Positions 41,877 to 49,577 of a DNA stretch of 64,000 nucleotides are shown one piece after another (position 1 is the first letter of the stretch; the number at the start of each line of letters is the position of its first letter). The notes beneath the pieces are model-generated. The model was not told where the DNA came from. It searched no databases and worked only from the letters and a program-made list of their open reading frames with translations. Source of the stretch: Actinomycetota bacterium (GTDB lineage Bacteria > Actinomycetota > Actinomycetes > S36-B12); the NCBI GenBank assembly GCA_947449035.1, contig CANFQC010000008.1, forward strand, positions 1 to 64,000, written 5' to 3'. The translations under genes were made by a program, and so were the position numbers.

Positions 41877-41967
41877 AAGCAGCGTGACAGGAAAGTACAG
41901 ACTCCGCATGCAGGCGCATTAGACTCGTCAAAAAGCAATTGCAGTTGAGTTGACCCAGGGGGCCCGA

Positions 41968-43200
41968 ATGCGCCGAGATCAGTTCATCGCGCGAAAGGTC
42001 GTCACTAGCGCGCTGCTTGTTTTGGCTTCGGTGCTGGGTGTAAGCGCGCTCGCGCCCCAGGCGATGGCCGTGACCACGCAGGCCGTTCTAGCGCCCAACA
42101 CTGCCAATCAGGTCGTCACCTTGCCCGCGGTGACCGGATTCGCGTCTTCGGATGTTCTCCTAGTCGGAGTCTCGCTCAATGGCGCGCCTGTCGGAACGTC
42201 ATTGAGTTTCACATCAACCACCGGACTCACTCCGGCATACGGATACTCATTCACTGCCGGCATGCAGGAGATCAGTTTCGTCGGAACACAGGCGAGCGTG
42301 AATGCAACGCTGGCCTCGGCGCTGATCTCCACCGGCGTGGCCGAGGGCGCTTTCACGATCCACGTCGGTGCCGTCCTGAACTCTCCGAATGTCTACTACC
42401 TGCCCTCGAGCGGCAGCTTCTACGAATTCGCCTCCGGAGACGTCTCGTGGACATCCGCACGAGCGAGCGCAGCGACTGCCGTGTTCTGGGGCTCGACCGG
42501 TCATCTTTCGAACATCACCAGCTCCCACGAGAACGATTTCATCAGCTGTCATGTCAATGCCCAGAACGTCTGGATCGGCGCGAGCGACTCGGCTCAGGAG
42601 GGAACCTGGATCTGGGTCGATGGCGCGGAATCAGGCACACAGTTCTGGCAAGGCGACTCGTCCGGCAGTACGACGCAGCCATGGAATTTCGCATCATGGG
42701 CAATCGGTCAGCCGAGCACAGATAACGCGGGGAACGACTACGGCGTCACGAATTGGCGCGGCACCAACGGGTTCTGGAATGCCGTGCCTAACCGACCTGA
42801 TCGCACGATGAACGGATACCTCGTTGAGTTCGCCGGGCCATTCACTGGCGTGTTCACGGATCAGCTGACTGTTGCTGTCGGCGGGGGTGACTACGCAATC
42901 TCGGATGTTGCGCCGCCGAACACCGCATGCGATTCGGGCGCGATCACTCCCGATGCCGTTGTAGTCACCCCGAGCACGGGATGGTTGCAGTCCTATGCAA
43001 GGACTAAGGGCGCTGAATGCGCGCGGAGTTGGAGTCCCTCGTGGGCGGTATGGGCTGTGCCCGTGAGCGGCGGGTCGGTATGTAATCGGGGCGTGTACTG
43101 GAGCGGTACTCAATGGATGCAAAATCCTGACCTGGGCTGGGGAAACTTCGATTCTGCGCTTTCTGGTCCGTGGGATGGTCTCTCCGCGCCACCTGGCTGA
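41968..43200 (+). CDS. secreted C-type-lectin-like domain protein with C-terminal W/C motif
   Basis: Signal peptide; GHLSNITSSHENDFI...WIGASDSAQEGTWIWVDGAESGTQFW...WAIGQPS...GNDYGVTNW...GFWNAVP...YLVEFAG. Confidence 0.82.
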   Translation: MRRDQFIARKVVTSALLVLASVLGVSALAPQAMAVTTQAVLAPNTANQVVTLPAVTGFASSDVLLVGVSLNGAPVGTSLSFTSTTGLTPAYGYSFTAGMQEISFVGTQASVNATLASALISTGVAEGAFTIHVGAVLNSPNVYYLPSSGSFYEFASGDVSWTSARASAATAVFWGSTGHLSNITSSHENDFISCHVNAQNVWIGASDSAQEGTWIWVDGAESGTQFWQGDSSGSTTQPWNFASWAIGQPSTDNAGNDYGVTNWRGTNGFWNAVPNRPDRTMNGYLVEFAGPFTGVFTDQLTVAVGGGDYAISDVAPPNTACDSGAITPDAVVVTPSTGWLQSYARTKGAECARSWSPSWAVWAVPVSGGSVCNRGVYWSGTQWMQNPDLGWGNFDSALSGPWDGLSAPPG

Positions 43201-43280
43201 CGTCGCACGACGACAAATATTTCTGACGGGGGAGCTACTGCGGCCTGTCCATCGGAAAGTGGAAACCAGCTCTTGGCCGT

Positions 43281-43943
43281 TCAGCTCCCGTAGGCGGGCA
43301 GGAACTTGTTGCACACGTACCCGCCCTTGCCGCCGTTAGGCCAGGTGTCCCAGGAGTCGGTGTAGCCATCCGGGCAGGTAGCGGTGGCTGATGCCCGGCC
43401 GATGGCCTGTTGCCACATCGGGATGGCTGCCGTTGTTTCTTCTGGCAACGTTACTGGGACCAGAACGTCATTGGCGGAGTCCCATACCCACACAGTCGCG
43501 CCTGATAGCGACGAGTTGGTAGTCGTGTATCCGCTGCCCCAGGACACCGTAATGACATCACCGGAATGAGCGGAAGTACTGGCGTCCACAAATAGGAAGG
43601 CGCCGTCCCCTTCGGTGTCGTCGCCCGAGAACGCCCTGCTTTGGCAGGACCTAATCGTTTGCGGGACCAAGTTATAGCTCAAGGTAATTCCGTAATCGAC
43701 GCAGTGACTTGGGTCATTGCCAGTCCAGGTGTTTGACGTGAAAAACGCGGTTGGCAGGTCAATCTCGGCCCAGTTCGCATCACCAGTGAGTGTGGTGGAC
43801 GCACTTCCCGAAACCGCCACTCCTGATGCAAATGACGCGAACTGCGCTGTCTCATTTGCCGCGAAGGCGACCGGAGCTAAACCCACGCCGCGCGAAGATG
43901 CCTGTTCTAGAGGCGATCGTGAGGTACTTTCCCATCGTGTCAT
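43281..43943 (-). CDS. secreted protein with C-terminal W/C motif
   Basis: Ends AIGRASATATCPDGYTDSWDTWPNGGKGGYVCNK; signal peptide partly disrupted or misframed. Confidence 0.65.
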   Translation of the reverse strand: MTRWESTSRSPLEQASSRGVGLAPVAFAANETAQFASFASGVAVSGSASTTLTGDANWAEIDLPTAFFTSNTWTGNDPSHCVDYGITLSYNLVPQTIRSCQSRAFSGDDTEGDGAFLFVDASTSAHSGDVITVSWGSGYTTTNSSLSGATVWVWDSANDVLVPVTLPEETTAAIPMWQQAIGRASATATCPDGYTDSWDTWPNGGKGGYVCNKFLPAYGS

Positions 43944-44007
43944 TCCTCCCTTTGTGGGGGACTGGCCGACTGGATGTTCTTAGTGGCTGGGATGCGAGGA
44001 GTTCGTA

Positions 44008-45213
44008 ATGCGCAGGTTATTGGTAACGGTTGCCTCGATTGCTGCGCTCGTTGTTCCTGGGGTCTGGTCCAGTCCGGTTGCATTAGCGTCAGTCGGGGAT
44101 GTCACCTTCACCAACAAGACCACCCTCGACGGACTCGGAAACGACCGAACGTACGGCGTGTTTGCCGCCGGTGGCACGGTATATGCCGCAACTTCCGCGG
44201 GCCTGAGTATCTCCACCGATGGCGGGGCGTCGTTCACCAACAAGACCACGGGCAGTGGACTTGGCGACAACCAGGTAAACGGCGTTTATGTCGCCGGAGG
44301 CACGATCTATGTCGCCACCGGCGGGGGTCTGAGTATTTCCACGGATGGCGGCGCCTCCTTCATCAACAAGACCACCACTAGCGGACTCGCCGACAATTAC
44401 GTGTATTGCGTTTATGCCTCCGGTGACACGATCTACGCAGGCACATCCTCGGGCTTGAGTATCTCCACGGATGGCGGGACGTCATTTACGACCAAGACCG
44501 CCATCGCCAATGGACTTGGCGATGACTATGTGTACGGCGTTTTTGCCGCAGGTGGCGTGATTTACGCTGCTACCAACGCGGGCTTGAGTATCTCGGCAGA
44601 TGGCGGCACGTCGTTCACCAACAAGACCACCATCAGTGGACTCGGTGACAACGTCGTGAACGGCGTTTTTGCCGGGGGTGGCGTGATTTACGCCGCCACC
44701 TTCGCAGGCTTGAGTATCTCCACGGATGGCGCGGCATCCTTCATCAACAAGCCCGTCGGGAGCGGATTCGGGAACGACAGTGCGTACAGCGTGTACGCCT
44801 CTGGCGCCACTGTCTACGTCGGTACCGCCTCAGGCTTGAGTATTTCCACAGATAGCGGGACTTCCTTTACCAACTACACGACCACGAGCGGACTCGGAAA
44901 TGACACCGTGCCGGGCGTGTATGCGGACGACAGCACGATCTACGCCGCTACCGCCGGAGGGTTGGGTATCTCCCATTCCTTCGCGGCTGTTGGGAGCGAT
45001 GTGCCAGTCGCACCAATGCAGGCATACGGGCGAGGAGCCGACGGAAAATGCGACAGCAATGCACCTTCGTGGGTGAACTGGTCCGGGGTTGCTGACAAGC
45101 AATACGCGGCTTGGGTTACGAGCTGGCAGTGGTGGCCGAATAACGGAACTGGCGGATATGTATGTGTACGCCAGCCGTACTACACCACGAGCAACGCTTG
45201 GGCCGTTCAGTAA
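44008..45213 (+). CDS. secreted seven-repeat beta-propeller-like protein with C-terminal W/C motif
   Basis: Signal peptide then seven ~42-aa repeats (SFTNKTTxSGLGDNxVxGVYAxGxTIYAATxxGLSISTDGGT). Confidence 0.88.
   Translation: MRRLLVTVASIAALVVPGVWSSPVALASVGDVTFTNKTTLDGLGNDRTYGVFAAGGTVYAATSAGLSISTDGGASFTNKTTGSGLGDNQVNGVYVAGGTIYVATGGGLSISTDGGASFINKTTTSGLADNYVYCVYASGDTIYAGTSSGLSISTDGGTSFTTKTAIANGLGDDYVYGVFAAGGVIYAATNAGLSISADGGTSFTNKTTISGLGDNVVNGVFAGGGVIYAATFAGLSISTDGAASFINKPVGSGFGNDSAYSVYASGATVYVGTASGLSISTDSGTSFTNYTTTSGLGNDTVPGVYADDSTIYAATAGGLGISHSFAAVGSDVPVAPMQAYGRGADGKCDSNAPSWVNWSGVADKQYAAWVTSWQWWPNNGTGGYVCVRQPYYTTSNAWAVQ
44101..44988 (+). repeat. seven tandem ~126-bp coding repeats
   Basis: Repeat lengths 43,42,42,43,42,42,42 aa counted directly from the translation. 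Confidence 0.9.
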
Positions 45214-46910: not shown

Positions 46911-49094
46911 ATGAGATTCGAGCGCTTGGGCCATTGGATCTTTCGTCATCGCCGATCGACTCTGGCTGTCGGCACCGTTCTCCTCGTGATTGCGGGCGTG
47001 GTCGGCTTTGGTGTCTTCCCACGACTGCTAGGTGGGGGATACGACGATCCCAACTCAGACTCTGCTGCAGTCGCTCGAATCCTTCAGGATGAGTTCGGAT
47101 CGCCGGATTCCGACCTGGTCATCGACTTGGCATTTCCGGGTTCCGCGGCGACACCTGAGGCTGCTGCTGCGGGTACGGCTCTGAGCACTCGAATCGCCGA
47201 TGTGTCTGACGTACTTCGAGTGACTGATTACTGGTCAACGGGTGCGACTGCGTTGCTCAGCGCTGACGGAAACTCGTCAGTGATCCTCGTGACCTTCGAC
47301 CCAAATGCCCCCCGACAACCGTCAGAGATCACCGACGAGATCTATTCGATGGTCGACTCGGCGAAGGCATCGGGCGAACTCGCGGGAGCGACTGCCTACA
47401 TCGGCGGTATTCAGGCTGTGTTCAAGTCGATCAATGGACAGATCAGCAAGGATCTCGCGAAGTCTGAGTCCATTGCTGTGCCGATCTCGCTGGTGCTGCT
47501 TTTCATCATCTTCGGAAGTCTCGTAGCCGCAGGCATGCCACTTCTTGTCGCCGGCGCATCGATTCTCGGCAGTTTCTTCGTGCTCTACGTGATCTCACTC
47601 TTCACTGAGACGTCCGTATTCGGTCTCAATCTCGTGACCGGCCTCGGGCTGGGGTTGGGCATCGATTACGCGCTGCTCATCGTGAGCCGATTCCGCGAAG
47701 AGCTCTTGGTTCAGCCAAATGTCGAGTCGGCCGTGGCCCGAACAGTGGGCTCAGCTGGGCGCACGGTGTTCTTCTCCGGCTTCACCGTGGGCGTGACTCT
47801 CGCGGCACTGCTGTTCTTTCCGCAGTACTTCCTGCGTTCATTCGCCTACGCGGGTATCTCGGTTGTGGTCTTCGCGATGGTGGGCGCGATCTTGATGCTG
47901 CCGGCCGTGCTCTCCATGGTCGGCCCGAGAGTTAACTCTCTGCGCATTCGCAAGAACGTGGCACGACCGAGTTCAGGAAGGCGCTGGGCAGCACTTGCCA
48001 CCTTCATCATGAAATACCCGTGGCCAATCGCGCTTGCAGCCATTGCTTTGCTGGGCGTGTTGGCGTGGCCGGCTATGGGGGCCAAGTTCAATCAGGCCGA
48101 TGAGCGCACCTTGCCGGTCACCGATTCCACCGTGGTAGCGATCGCCCAGCTGACAGATAACTTCCCCCAATTGGGAGCGTCACCGATCGAGATCATGCTG
48201 CCGGCCGGCGTGGATGCATCAGCGGTGGCTGATTACGCGACTCGCCTTTCGCAGGTGGCGACGATCAAGGTCGTGACGACCCAAGGTGGCACTTATTCAG
48301 ACGGCGCCCGGGTGGGAGATTCCTTGCCCACGGTGACCTACCTGTCGCCGCAGCATGAGCGGCTGCTTGCGTATTCGTCGGAGCGTTCGCGGAGCCCCGC
48401 AGGTGAAGTGGTGATTGCCGATGTCCGGGCGACCGCGCCACCCGTCGAGGGTGTGCTCGTGGGCGGCGTGGGAGCCGCGTACACCGATTCGCAGCATGGC
48501 ATCGGCAAGGCGCTGCCTTGGGCCATCGCCTGGGTGCTCGCGACCGTGCTGATCCTGGTCTTCCTCTTCACTGGCAGCGTGCTGCTGCCGATTAAGGCCG
48601 TGATCCTTAACATGCTGAGTCTCGCAGCCACCATGGGCGTGTTGGTCTGGGTTTTCCAGGGGGAACACCTCACCTGGCTGGTCGGCACATTTGTCCCGAC
48701 GGGGGCCATCGACACATCAGTAGTCGTCCTCACGGCGATTGTGGCCTTCGGCCTGTCGATGGACTACGAGGTTTTCCTGCTTTCACGCATCAAGGAGGAA
48801 TACGAGCACACCGGCGACAACGTGAGCTCGGTCGCGCATGGTCTCGCGAAGTCAGCGGGCATCATTACGGCGGCTGCACTGTTGCTCGCCATCGTGTTCG
48901 CTGCGTTCTTGACCTCGTCTGTCACCTTGATCAAGGTCCTCGGTCTCGGTGTCGCAGTGGCGATCTTGCTTGATGCATCGATCGTGCGCGTGTTCTTGGT
49001 GCCTGCGTTCATGCGCATCGCAGGTTCAGCGAACTGGTGGGCGCCTCGACCTCTCAAGAAGATCTACCAACGATTCGGCCTGCACGACGTCTGA
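46911..49094 (+). CDS. MMPL/RND-family transporter
   Basis: 12-TM two-fold repeat, GLGLGLGIDYALLIVSRFREEL, FGLSMDYEVFLLSRIKEEY. Confidence 0.95.
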   Translation: MRFERLGHWIFRHRRSTLAVGTVLLVIAGVVGFGVFPRLLGGGYDDPNSDSAAVARILQDEFGSPDSDLVIDLAFPGSAATPEAAAAGTALSTRIADVSDVLRVTDYWSTGATALLSADGNSSVILVTFDPNAPRQPSEITDEIYSMVDSAKASGELAGATAYIGGIQAVFKSINGQISKDLAKSESIAVPISLVLLFIIFGSLVAAGMPLLVAGASILGSFFVLYVISLFTETSVFGLNLVTGLGLGLGIDYALLIVSRFREELLVQPNVESAVARTVGSAGRTVFFSGFTVGVTLAALLFFPQYFLRSFAYAGISVVVFAMVGAILMLPAVLSMVGPRVNSLRIRKNVARPSSGRRWAALATFIMKYPWPIALAAIALLGVLAWPAMGAKFNQADERTLPVTDSTVVAIAQLTDNFPQLGASPIEIMLPAGVDASAVADYATRLSQVATIKVVTTQGGTYSDGARVGDSLPTVTYLSPQHERLLAYSSERSRSPAGEVVIADVRATAPPVEGVLVGGVGAAYTDSQHGIGKALPWAIAWVLATVLILVFLFTGSVLLPIKAVILNMLSLAATMGVLVWVFQGEHLTWLVGTFVPTGAIDTSVVVLTAIVAFGLSMDYEVFLLSRIKEEYEHTGDNVSSVAHGLAKSAGIITAAALLLAIVFAAFLTSSVTLIKVLGLGVAVAILLDASIVRVFLVPAFMRIAGSANWWAPRPLKKIYQRFGLHDV

Positions 49095-49109
49095 GTCTTG
49101 CGGCGGAGA

Positions 49110-49385
49110 TTAGTCTGCGCAGGCGTGATTGGGGGTAGTCCAGTTGTATCCGCCCGCGACCAACTCGAGATCCGAGTCGCTCAACGCCGAACTGGCCGGG
49201 ATCACGAGATGGATATCGGTGGGGGATTCCTCGTGGATGGTGACGCGGACACTGTCAGGAACCTGCTGGCCGGCGAGCGACTCCAGTGCGGAGCGCGGAT
49301 CGCTCAACAGAGCCGCGCGAAACTGGGGGTCTTCGGCAATGCGGTCAGCGATTGCCTGATCAATGGTGGTGCGGTCAATGCTCAT
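49110..49385 (-). CDS. NHLP-leader-type RiPP precursor peptide
   Basis: IADRIAEDPQFRAALLSDPRSALESLAGQQVPDSVRVTIHEESPTDIHLVIPA...LSDSDLELVAGG | YNWTTPNHACAD; GGAG SD. Confidence 0.83.
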   Translation of the reverse strand: MSIDRTTIDQAIADRIAEDPQFRAALLSDPRSALESLAGQQVPDSVRVTIHEESPTDIHLVIPASSALSDSDLELVAGGYNWTTPNHACAD

Positions 49386-49577
49386 GACGTCTCCGAGGTA
49401 GCAGGTGTTCCGGTCAGACGAGTGAAGCCTACGTCGGCGTTCCCGTTTTCGTTCGTTCTGAGGGCGTGCATGAGGGGTACCAGGGCAAGTCGTGAATAAC
49501 CCCCGCCTTCATTCAGAAATCCCCCTTCGTGCCAGGTGTGCGCGACAGGAGGAACCCGATCGCCCTACGGTCCTCTC

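Follow-up and report, generated by a model that had tools for sequence, protein, structure and literature searches.

The precursor gene

The locus raises the question of whether a short gene that is laid out like a RiPP precursor, and that stands apart from any recognized maturation enzyme, encodes a genuine precursor and, if so, how its product would be matured. In the window, that is, the whole stretch of 64,000 nucleotides analysed, a 91-aa ORF runs from ATG to stop at 49385..49110 on the minus strand (the span 49110-49385 takes in the stop codon). A sequence-only reading had already claimed this ORF and its layout of N-terminal motif, double glycine and short core; all of these were present in the sequence, and the strand, which had been left out, is added here. 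The features of the locus are as follows.

49110..49385, minus strand: NHLP-family RiPP precursor, 91 aa (TIGR03793, 68.6 bits; PDB 8TB1, E 3.3e-7; PDB 9CJX, E 1.5e-5)
49149..49385, minus strand: leader, residues 1-79, ending in VAGG and containing L68-SDSD-L73, an L(X)4L pair (alignment with Leu70/Leu75 of MprE7)
49113..49148, minus strand: predicted core YNWTTPNHACAD, directly after GG, with Trp at core position 3 and Cys at position 10 (19-member alignment)
46911..49094, plus strand: MMPL-family membrane protein, convergent neighbour, judged to lie outside the system (PF03176, 252.8 bits)

The product carries IADRIAEDPQFRAALLSDPRSALESL at its N terminus, and its leader ends in LSDSDLELVAGG. 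A Shine-Dalgarno-like GGAG motif lies directly upstream of the ATG, and the GC3 of the ORF (0.74) is similar to that of neighbouring genes; scans for promoters and terminators around the gene found none. A plus-strand ORF with a TTG start at 49098-49499 overlaps the gene and looks like an overlap artefact.

The curated NHLP leader model TIGR03793 matched the product over model positions 2-77 of 77, well above its cut-off of 50.9 bits (E 3.2e-19), which bears out the proposal of an NHLP-type precursor and rules out a chance ORF. The leader could also be aligned with both solved NHLP leaders, 9CJX and the MprE7 chimera 8TB1; its similarity to nitrile hydratase alpha chains was weaker. Two other assignments were rejected, namely, a Nif11-type leader (TIGR03798, 13.7 bits against a cut-off of 32.3) and a nitrile hydratase subunit itself (20.8 bits against 249.85). 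Residues 12-80 could be aligned to MprE7 such that the L(X)4L pairs coincide, L68 and L73 corresponding to Leu70 and Leu75; the YcaO enzyme MprC needs both of the latter to recognize MprE7 (PMC12455567). As proof of a YcaO partner the motif was rejected, since the LanM-linked NHLPs of another genome (G041) carry it too; it thus marks an intact NHLP leader and no particular partner.

In common with NHLP/proteusin precursors (TIGR03793; PMC2887384), the window gene has a leader that scores above the cut-off and resembles the nitrile hydratase alpha chain, a GG junction and a hypervariable short core. Unlike these precursors generally, it has a very short Trp/Cys core and stands in a genome (G000) where the maturases searched for and a C39 exporter were not found. 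Lack of a maturase does not bar membership, since the paper that defined the family already noted NHLPs without recognized maturases (Haft et al. 2010, PMC2887384); the window gene therefore adds to a kind already known. Judged by its sequence, it is a genuine NHLP-family precursor of a small modified peptide.

Other NHLPs and maturase searches in the same genome

The G000 assembly (2.36 Mb, 87 contigs, 97.73% complete) was found to hold five NHLPs on three contigs, four of them of the window subfamily. A tandem triplet of this subfamily lies at C15:27375-28369(-). The fifth NHLP, at C30:11808-12080(-) (locus L037:9808-10080), is distant (90 aa, 28 bits to TIGR03793) and lies between rpoC-like and rpsL-like genes, so named from their sequence, beside a 237-aa protein without a Pfam match. 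The description of the window gene as an orphan thus stands as regards maturases, none of the tested families being found nearby or in the genome, but not as regards precursors, of which there are four more. The congeners G001 and G002 had no NHLP.

None of the four subfamily ORFs in G000 is interrupted. Among the C15 paralogues, leader dN/dS was 0.23 to 0.32, nonsynonymous changes fell below the neutral expectation (binomial p 0.0001-0.009), and neutral drift simulated at their divergence left all three frames open in only 1 to 4% of runs. These values indicate that the leaders of the triplet were under purifying selection.

We then searched G000 family by family for maturases and an exporter. 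Peptidase_C39 (PF03412) gave no match at E <= 1, although it was positive in 8 of 14 control genomes. YcaO reached at best 12.2 bits, under the cut-off, and the specific TIGR03882-YcaO fusion gave nothing; neither the rSAM maturase of the subfamily nor LanC-like proteins matched above cut-off in G000, DUF2332 was not found there, and the family searches revealed no partial maturase match at any G000 contig end. The absence of maturases noted in the window therefore extends to the families scanned across the genome. Nine radical SAM domains are present, all in housekeeping-type proteins that we read as MoaA, MiaB, HemW, RimO, FbiC (two domains), LipA, RlmN and one B12-binding-type protein; on this reading none of the nine resembles a peptide maturase.

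Neighbours of the precursor gene

The sequence-only reading had also suggested an undescribed minimal system in which the precursor acts with its MMPL, ACP-thioesterase and PAP2 neighbours. A related alternative is that the GG peptide stays unmodified and MMPL serves as its exporter. Pfam confirmed the identity of all three neighbours, and the coordinates agree with the convergent arrangement described, the two stop codons being 15 bp apart, but this closeness is the only point in favour. Other members of the subfamily have different neighbours: a gene for a secreted alpha/beta-hydrolase-like protein (L041), a LysR-like gene (L052), a CAAX-protease-like gene (L056), and ferric-reductase-like and nucleoside-kinase-like genes around the C15 triplet. 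Since none of the other subfamily members in the loci read has MMPL, ACP-thioesterase or PAP2 next door, the minimal system is unsupported, and a system coupled to MMPL was rejected. Moreover, G000 lacks a C39 peptidase that could cleave at GG, and PAP2 was unmatched in eight relatives, congeners and four subfamily carriers included, in a search run without a positive control. We thus regard the minimal system, with or without modification of the peptide, as very improbable.

Two side observations were made in the same genome. At 41950-45213 of the window, secreted lectin-like proteins and proteins with beta-propeller-like repeats, encoded on both strands, seem to share a similar Cys/Trp-containing C-terminal segment. 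The contig of the C15 triplet encodes an 869-aa DnaB replicative helicase (L005:5573-8182) that appears to bear an intein, with an HN/S-type end before the helicase resumes.

Relatives and their maturation clusters

A single-sequence scan of GTDB contigs returned no relative of the window precursor. A subfamily profile returned 13 loci, of which eight were close; these eight all come from MAGs, most of which have isolate names that refer to a lake or river. One of these MAGs was deposited as Acidobacteria and another as Bifidobacterium breve; the latter label is certainly open to doubt, since that MAG groups within the family to which the window belongs. Plasmid records yielded only two NHLPs, both distant and proteobacterial. 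Five relative loci bear maturation genes.

L049: three precursors, YcaO fusion, sulfotransferase-like gene, PhyH
L050: two precursors, rSAM, DUF2332
L053: three precursors, rSAM, DUF2332, sulfotransferase, YcaO fusion
L054: two precursors flanking rSAM and DUF2332, with a SagB-family dehydrogenase adjoining
L115: YcaO fusion, SagB-family dehydrogenase, PhyH-like gene (its MAG also contains the precursor contig L055/L116)

The YcaO enzyme is a fused TIGR03882-YcaO cyclodehydratase (PF02624, 257.5 bits in L053), and the SagB-family dehydrogenase scored above the cut-off of TIGR03605. The rSAM protein exceeded the cut-off of PF04055 and has a SPASM-like C terminus; it fell far under the cut-off of every NCBIfam equivalog, the best being the nif11-type TIGR04064 and PapB. 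The YcaO and rSAM groups lie on one contig in L053. Our literature search found no description of a composite cluster of YcaO, SagB, radical SAM/SPASM, DUF2332 and sulfotransferase genes with very short Trp/Cys cores, and none that pairs DUF2332 with radical SAM; this cluster is the more interesting by-product of the analysis and merits a study of its own.

These clusters can be compared with two known systems. Azole proteusins of the MprE/MprC type (PMC12455567, PDB 8TB1) share the alignable leader, and relatives of the window gene are likewise encoded beside a fused YcaO; in contrast, no YcaO was found in G000, and the clusters of the relatives additionally contain genes for rSAM/SPASM, DUF2332 and sulfotransferase. 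The nostatin A cluster (PMC11583998) resembles those of the relatives in combining an NHLP precursor, azole-forming enzymes and radical SAM proteins, but its core is 30 aa long and its enzymes include a PoyD-like epimerase and one like LanM, whereas cores of the subfamily measure about 10 to 30 aa and no LanM gene occurs in the subfamily clusters read. NHLP arrays of other subfamilies were also seen. In L038 (G041:C81), seven precursors adjoin genes for a large LanM-like and an HlyD-like protein, and the contig of L040 (G031:C42) carries a set whose cores read GSTVGTGGT, together with ABC exporter-like genes.

Precursors also occur alone in mid-contig in MAGs that carry a cluster elsewhere (L052 in the MAG of L049, L056 in that of L053), so a position away from the enzymes is normal for the subfamily. 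The proposal that the window product is matured in trans thus has precedent among the relatives, but the enzymes themselves were not found in G000. NHLP precursors scatter through freshwater actinobacterial genomes much like the singly dispersed prochlorosin precursors of picocyanobacteria (PMC10783134). Those belong to a different leader family (Nif11) and have a different maturase, ProcM; LanM was found in 9 of the 12 strains that contain prochlorosins, which means that some lack it (PMC10783134). Because of this scattering, mining by neighbourhood alone misses substrates.

Conservation of the junction and the core

Across the subfamily VAG is invariant, and the last Gly gives way to Ala in the L049 copies alone. 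In the 19-member alignment a Trp near GG is near-invariant and a downstream Cys is common. The GG-core junction is thus conserved, but the exact core is not, and only this Trp and Cys recur. The shortest cores have about 10 residues, such as ACWTNDCTSGP and EMCWGNCGNCAP. Cores of cluster-bearing genomes are short, and all 14 contain at least one Cys. The C15 paralogues have similar leaders and dissimilar cores that could not be aligned; like leaders with differing cores are the usual pattern in RiPPs.

Maturation, decay or another use

Our preferred reading, held with a probability of about 0.75, is that the window gene is a dispersed ("satellite") precursor of a YcaO/rSAM proteusin-type NHLP subfamily of freshwater actinobacteria, whose enzymes were either unbinned or lost. 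If it is matured, the folded leader would bind the maturases, which, to judge from their enzyme families, would turn the core Cys into thiazol(in)e, cross-link Trp/Cys by radical SAM chemistry, or do both; cleavage after GG would then follow. No maturase was seen in G000, which leaves maturation of this copy hypothetical, and the congeners G001 and G002 are without NHLPs; both points count against this reading. Since neither the enzymes nor a C39 exporter were found, most probably either the cluster is absent from the assembly or the gene is the unmatured leftover of a lost cluster.

That the organism has the cluster, unassembled or unbinned, and that the gene is an ordinary satellite matured in trans comes close to an even chance in our view. 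The purifying selection on leaders and the open frames argue for it, as do the lone satellites of cluster-bearing MAGs, the scattered prochlorosin precursors of Synechococcus and Prochlorococcus genomes (PMC10783134) and the short contigs of 3.5 to 8.5 kb on which relatives' clusters sit (L050, L049, L053). However, the assembly is 97.73% complete, its contig ends gave no partial match in the family searches, and the C15 cores have drifted, Trp or Cys being lost in two of three.

These core losses, together with a long leader branch for the window gene (0.54 in the tree) and a longer stem for the C15 triplet (0.84), speak against active maturation and appear to fit decay better. A serious possibility, at somewhat less than even odds, is accordingly that the cluster was lost in the lineage and that the precursor genes are decaying leftovers without a product. 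Strong matches to the subfamily occur in six of the 167 genomes of the order (G000, G009, G071, G087, G118 and G124); the rSAM is present in G071 and G124 and the YcaO fusion in G087, G118 and G124, while G000 and G009 have neither. In G009, which is in a like state to G000, one intact copy is accompanied by a fragment and a 5'-truncated pseudogene of the same subfamily (L047:9800-10040, G009:C2), so that gene decay is seen where no cluster was found. A Trp within four residues of GG occurs in 14/14 cores of cluster-bearing genomes versus 2/5 in G000 and G009 (Fisher p 0.01, the copies not being independent). Loss of the cluster would also explain why the tested maturases and C39 are all missing from so complete an assembly. 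Against it stand the four open ORFs in G000 and the constraint on the C15 leaders, although that selection may predate the loss.

The probability that remains beside these two versions of the satellite reading falls to an unknown maturase or to unmodified use. It is conceivable but improbable that the NHLP peptides outlived their maturases and exporter and were kept by selection for another job, either unmodified inside the cell or as the target of an enzyme that belongs to none of the known families of maturases. If the precursors truly persist without their enzymes, they would offer a test of how long RiPP precursors survive after maturase loss.
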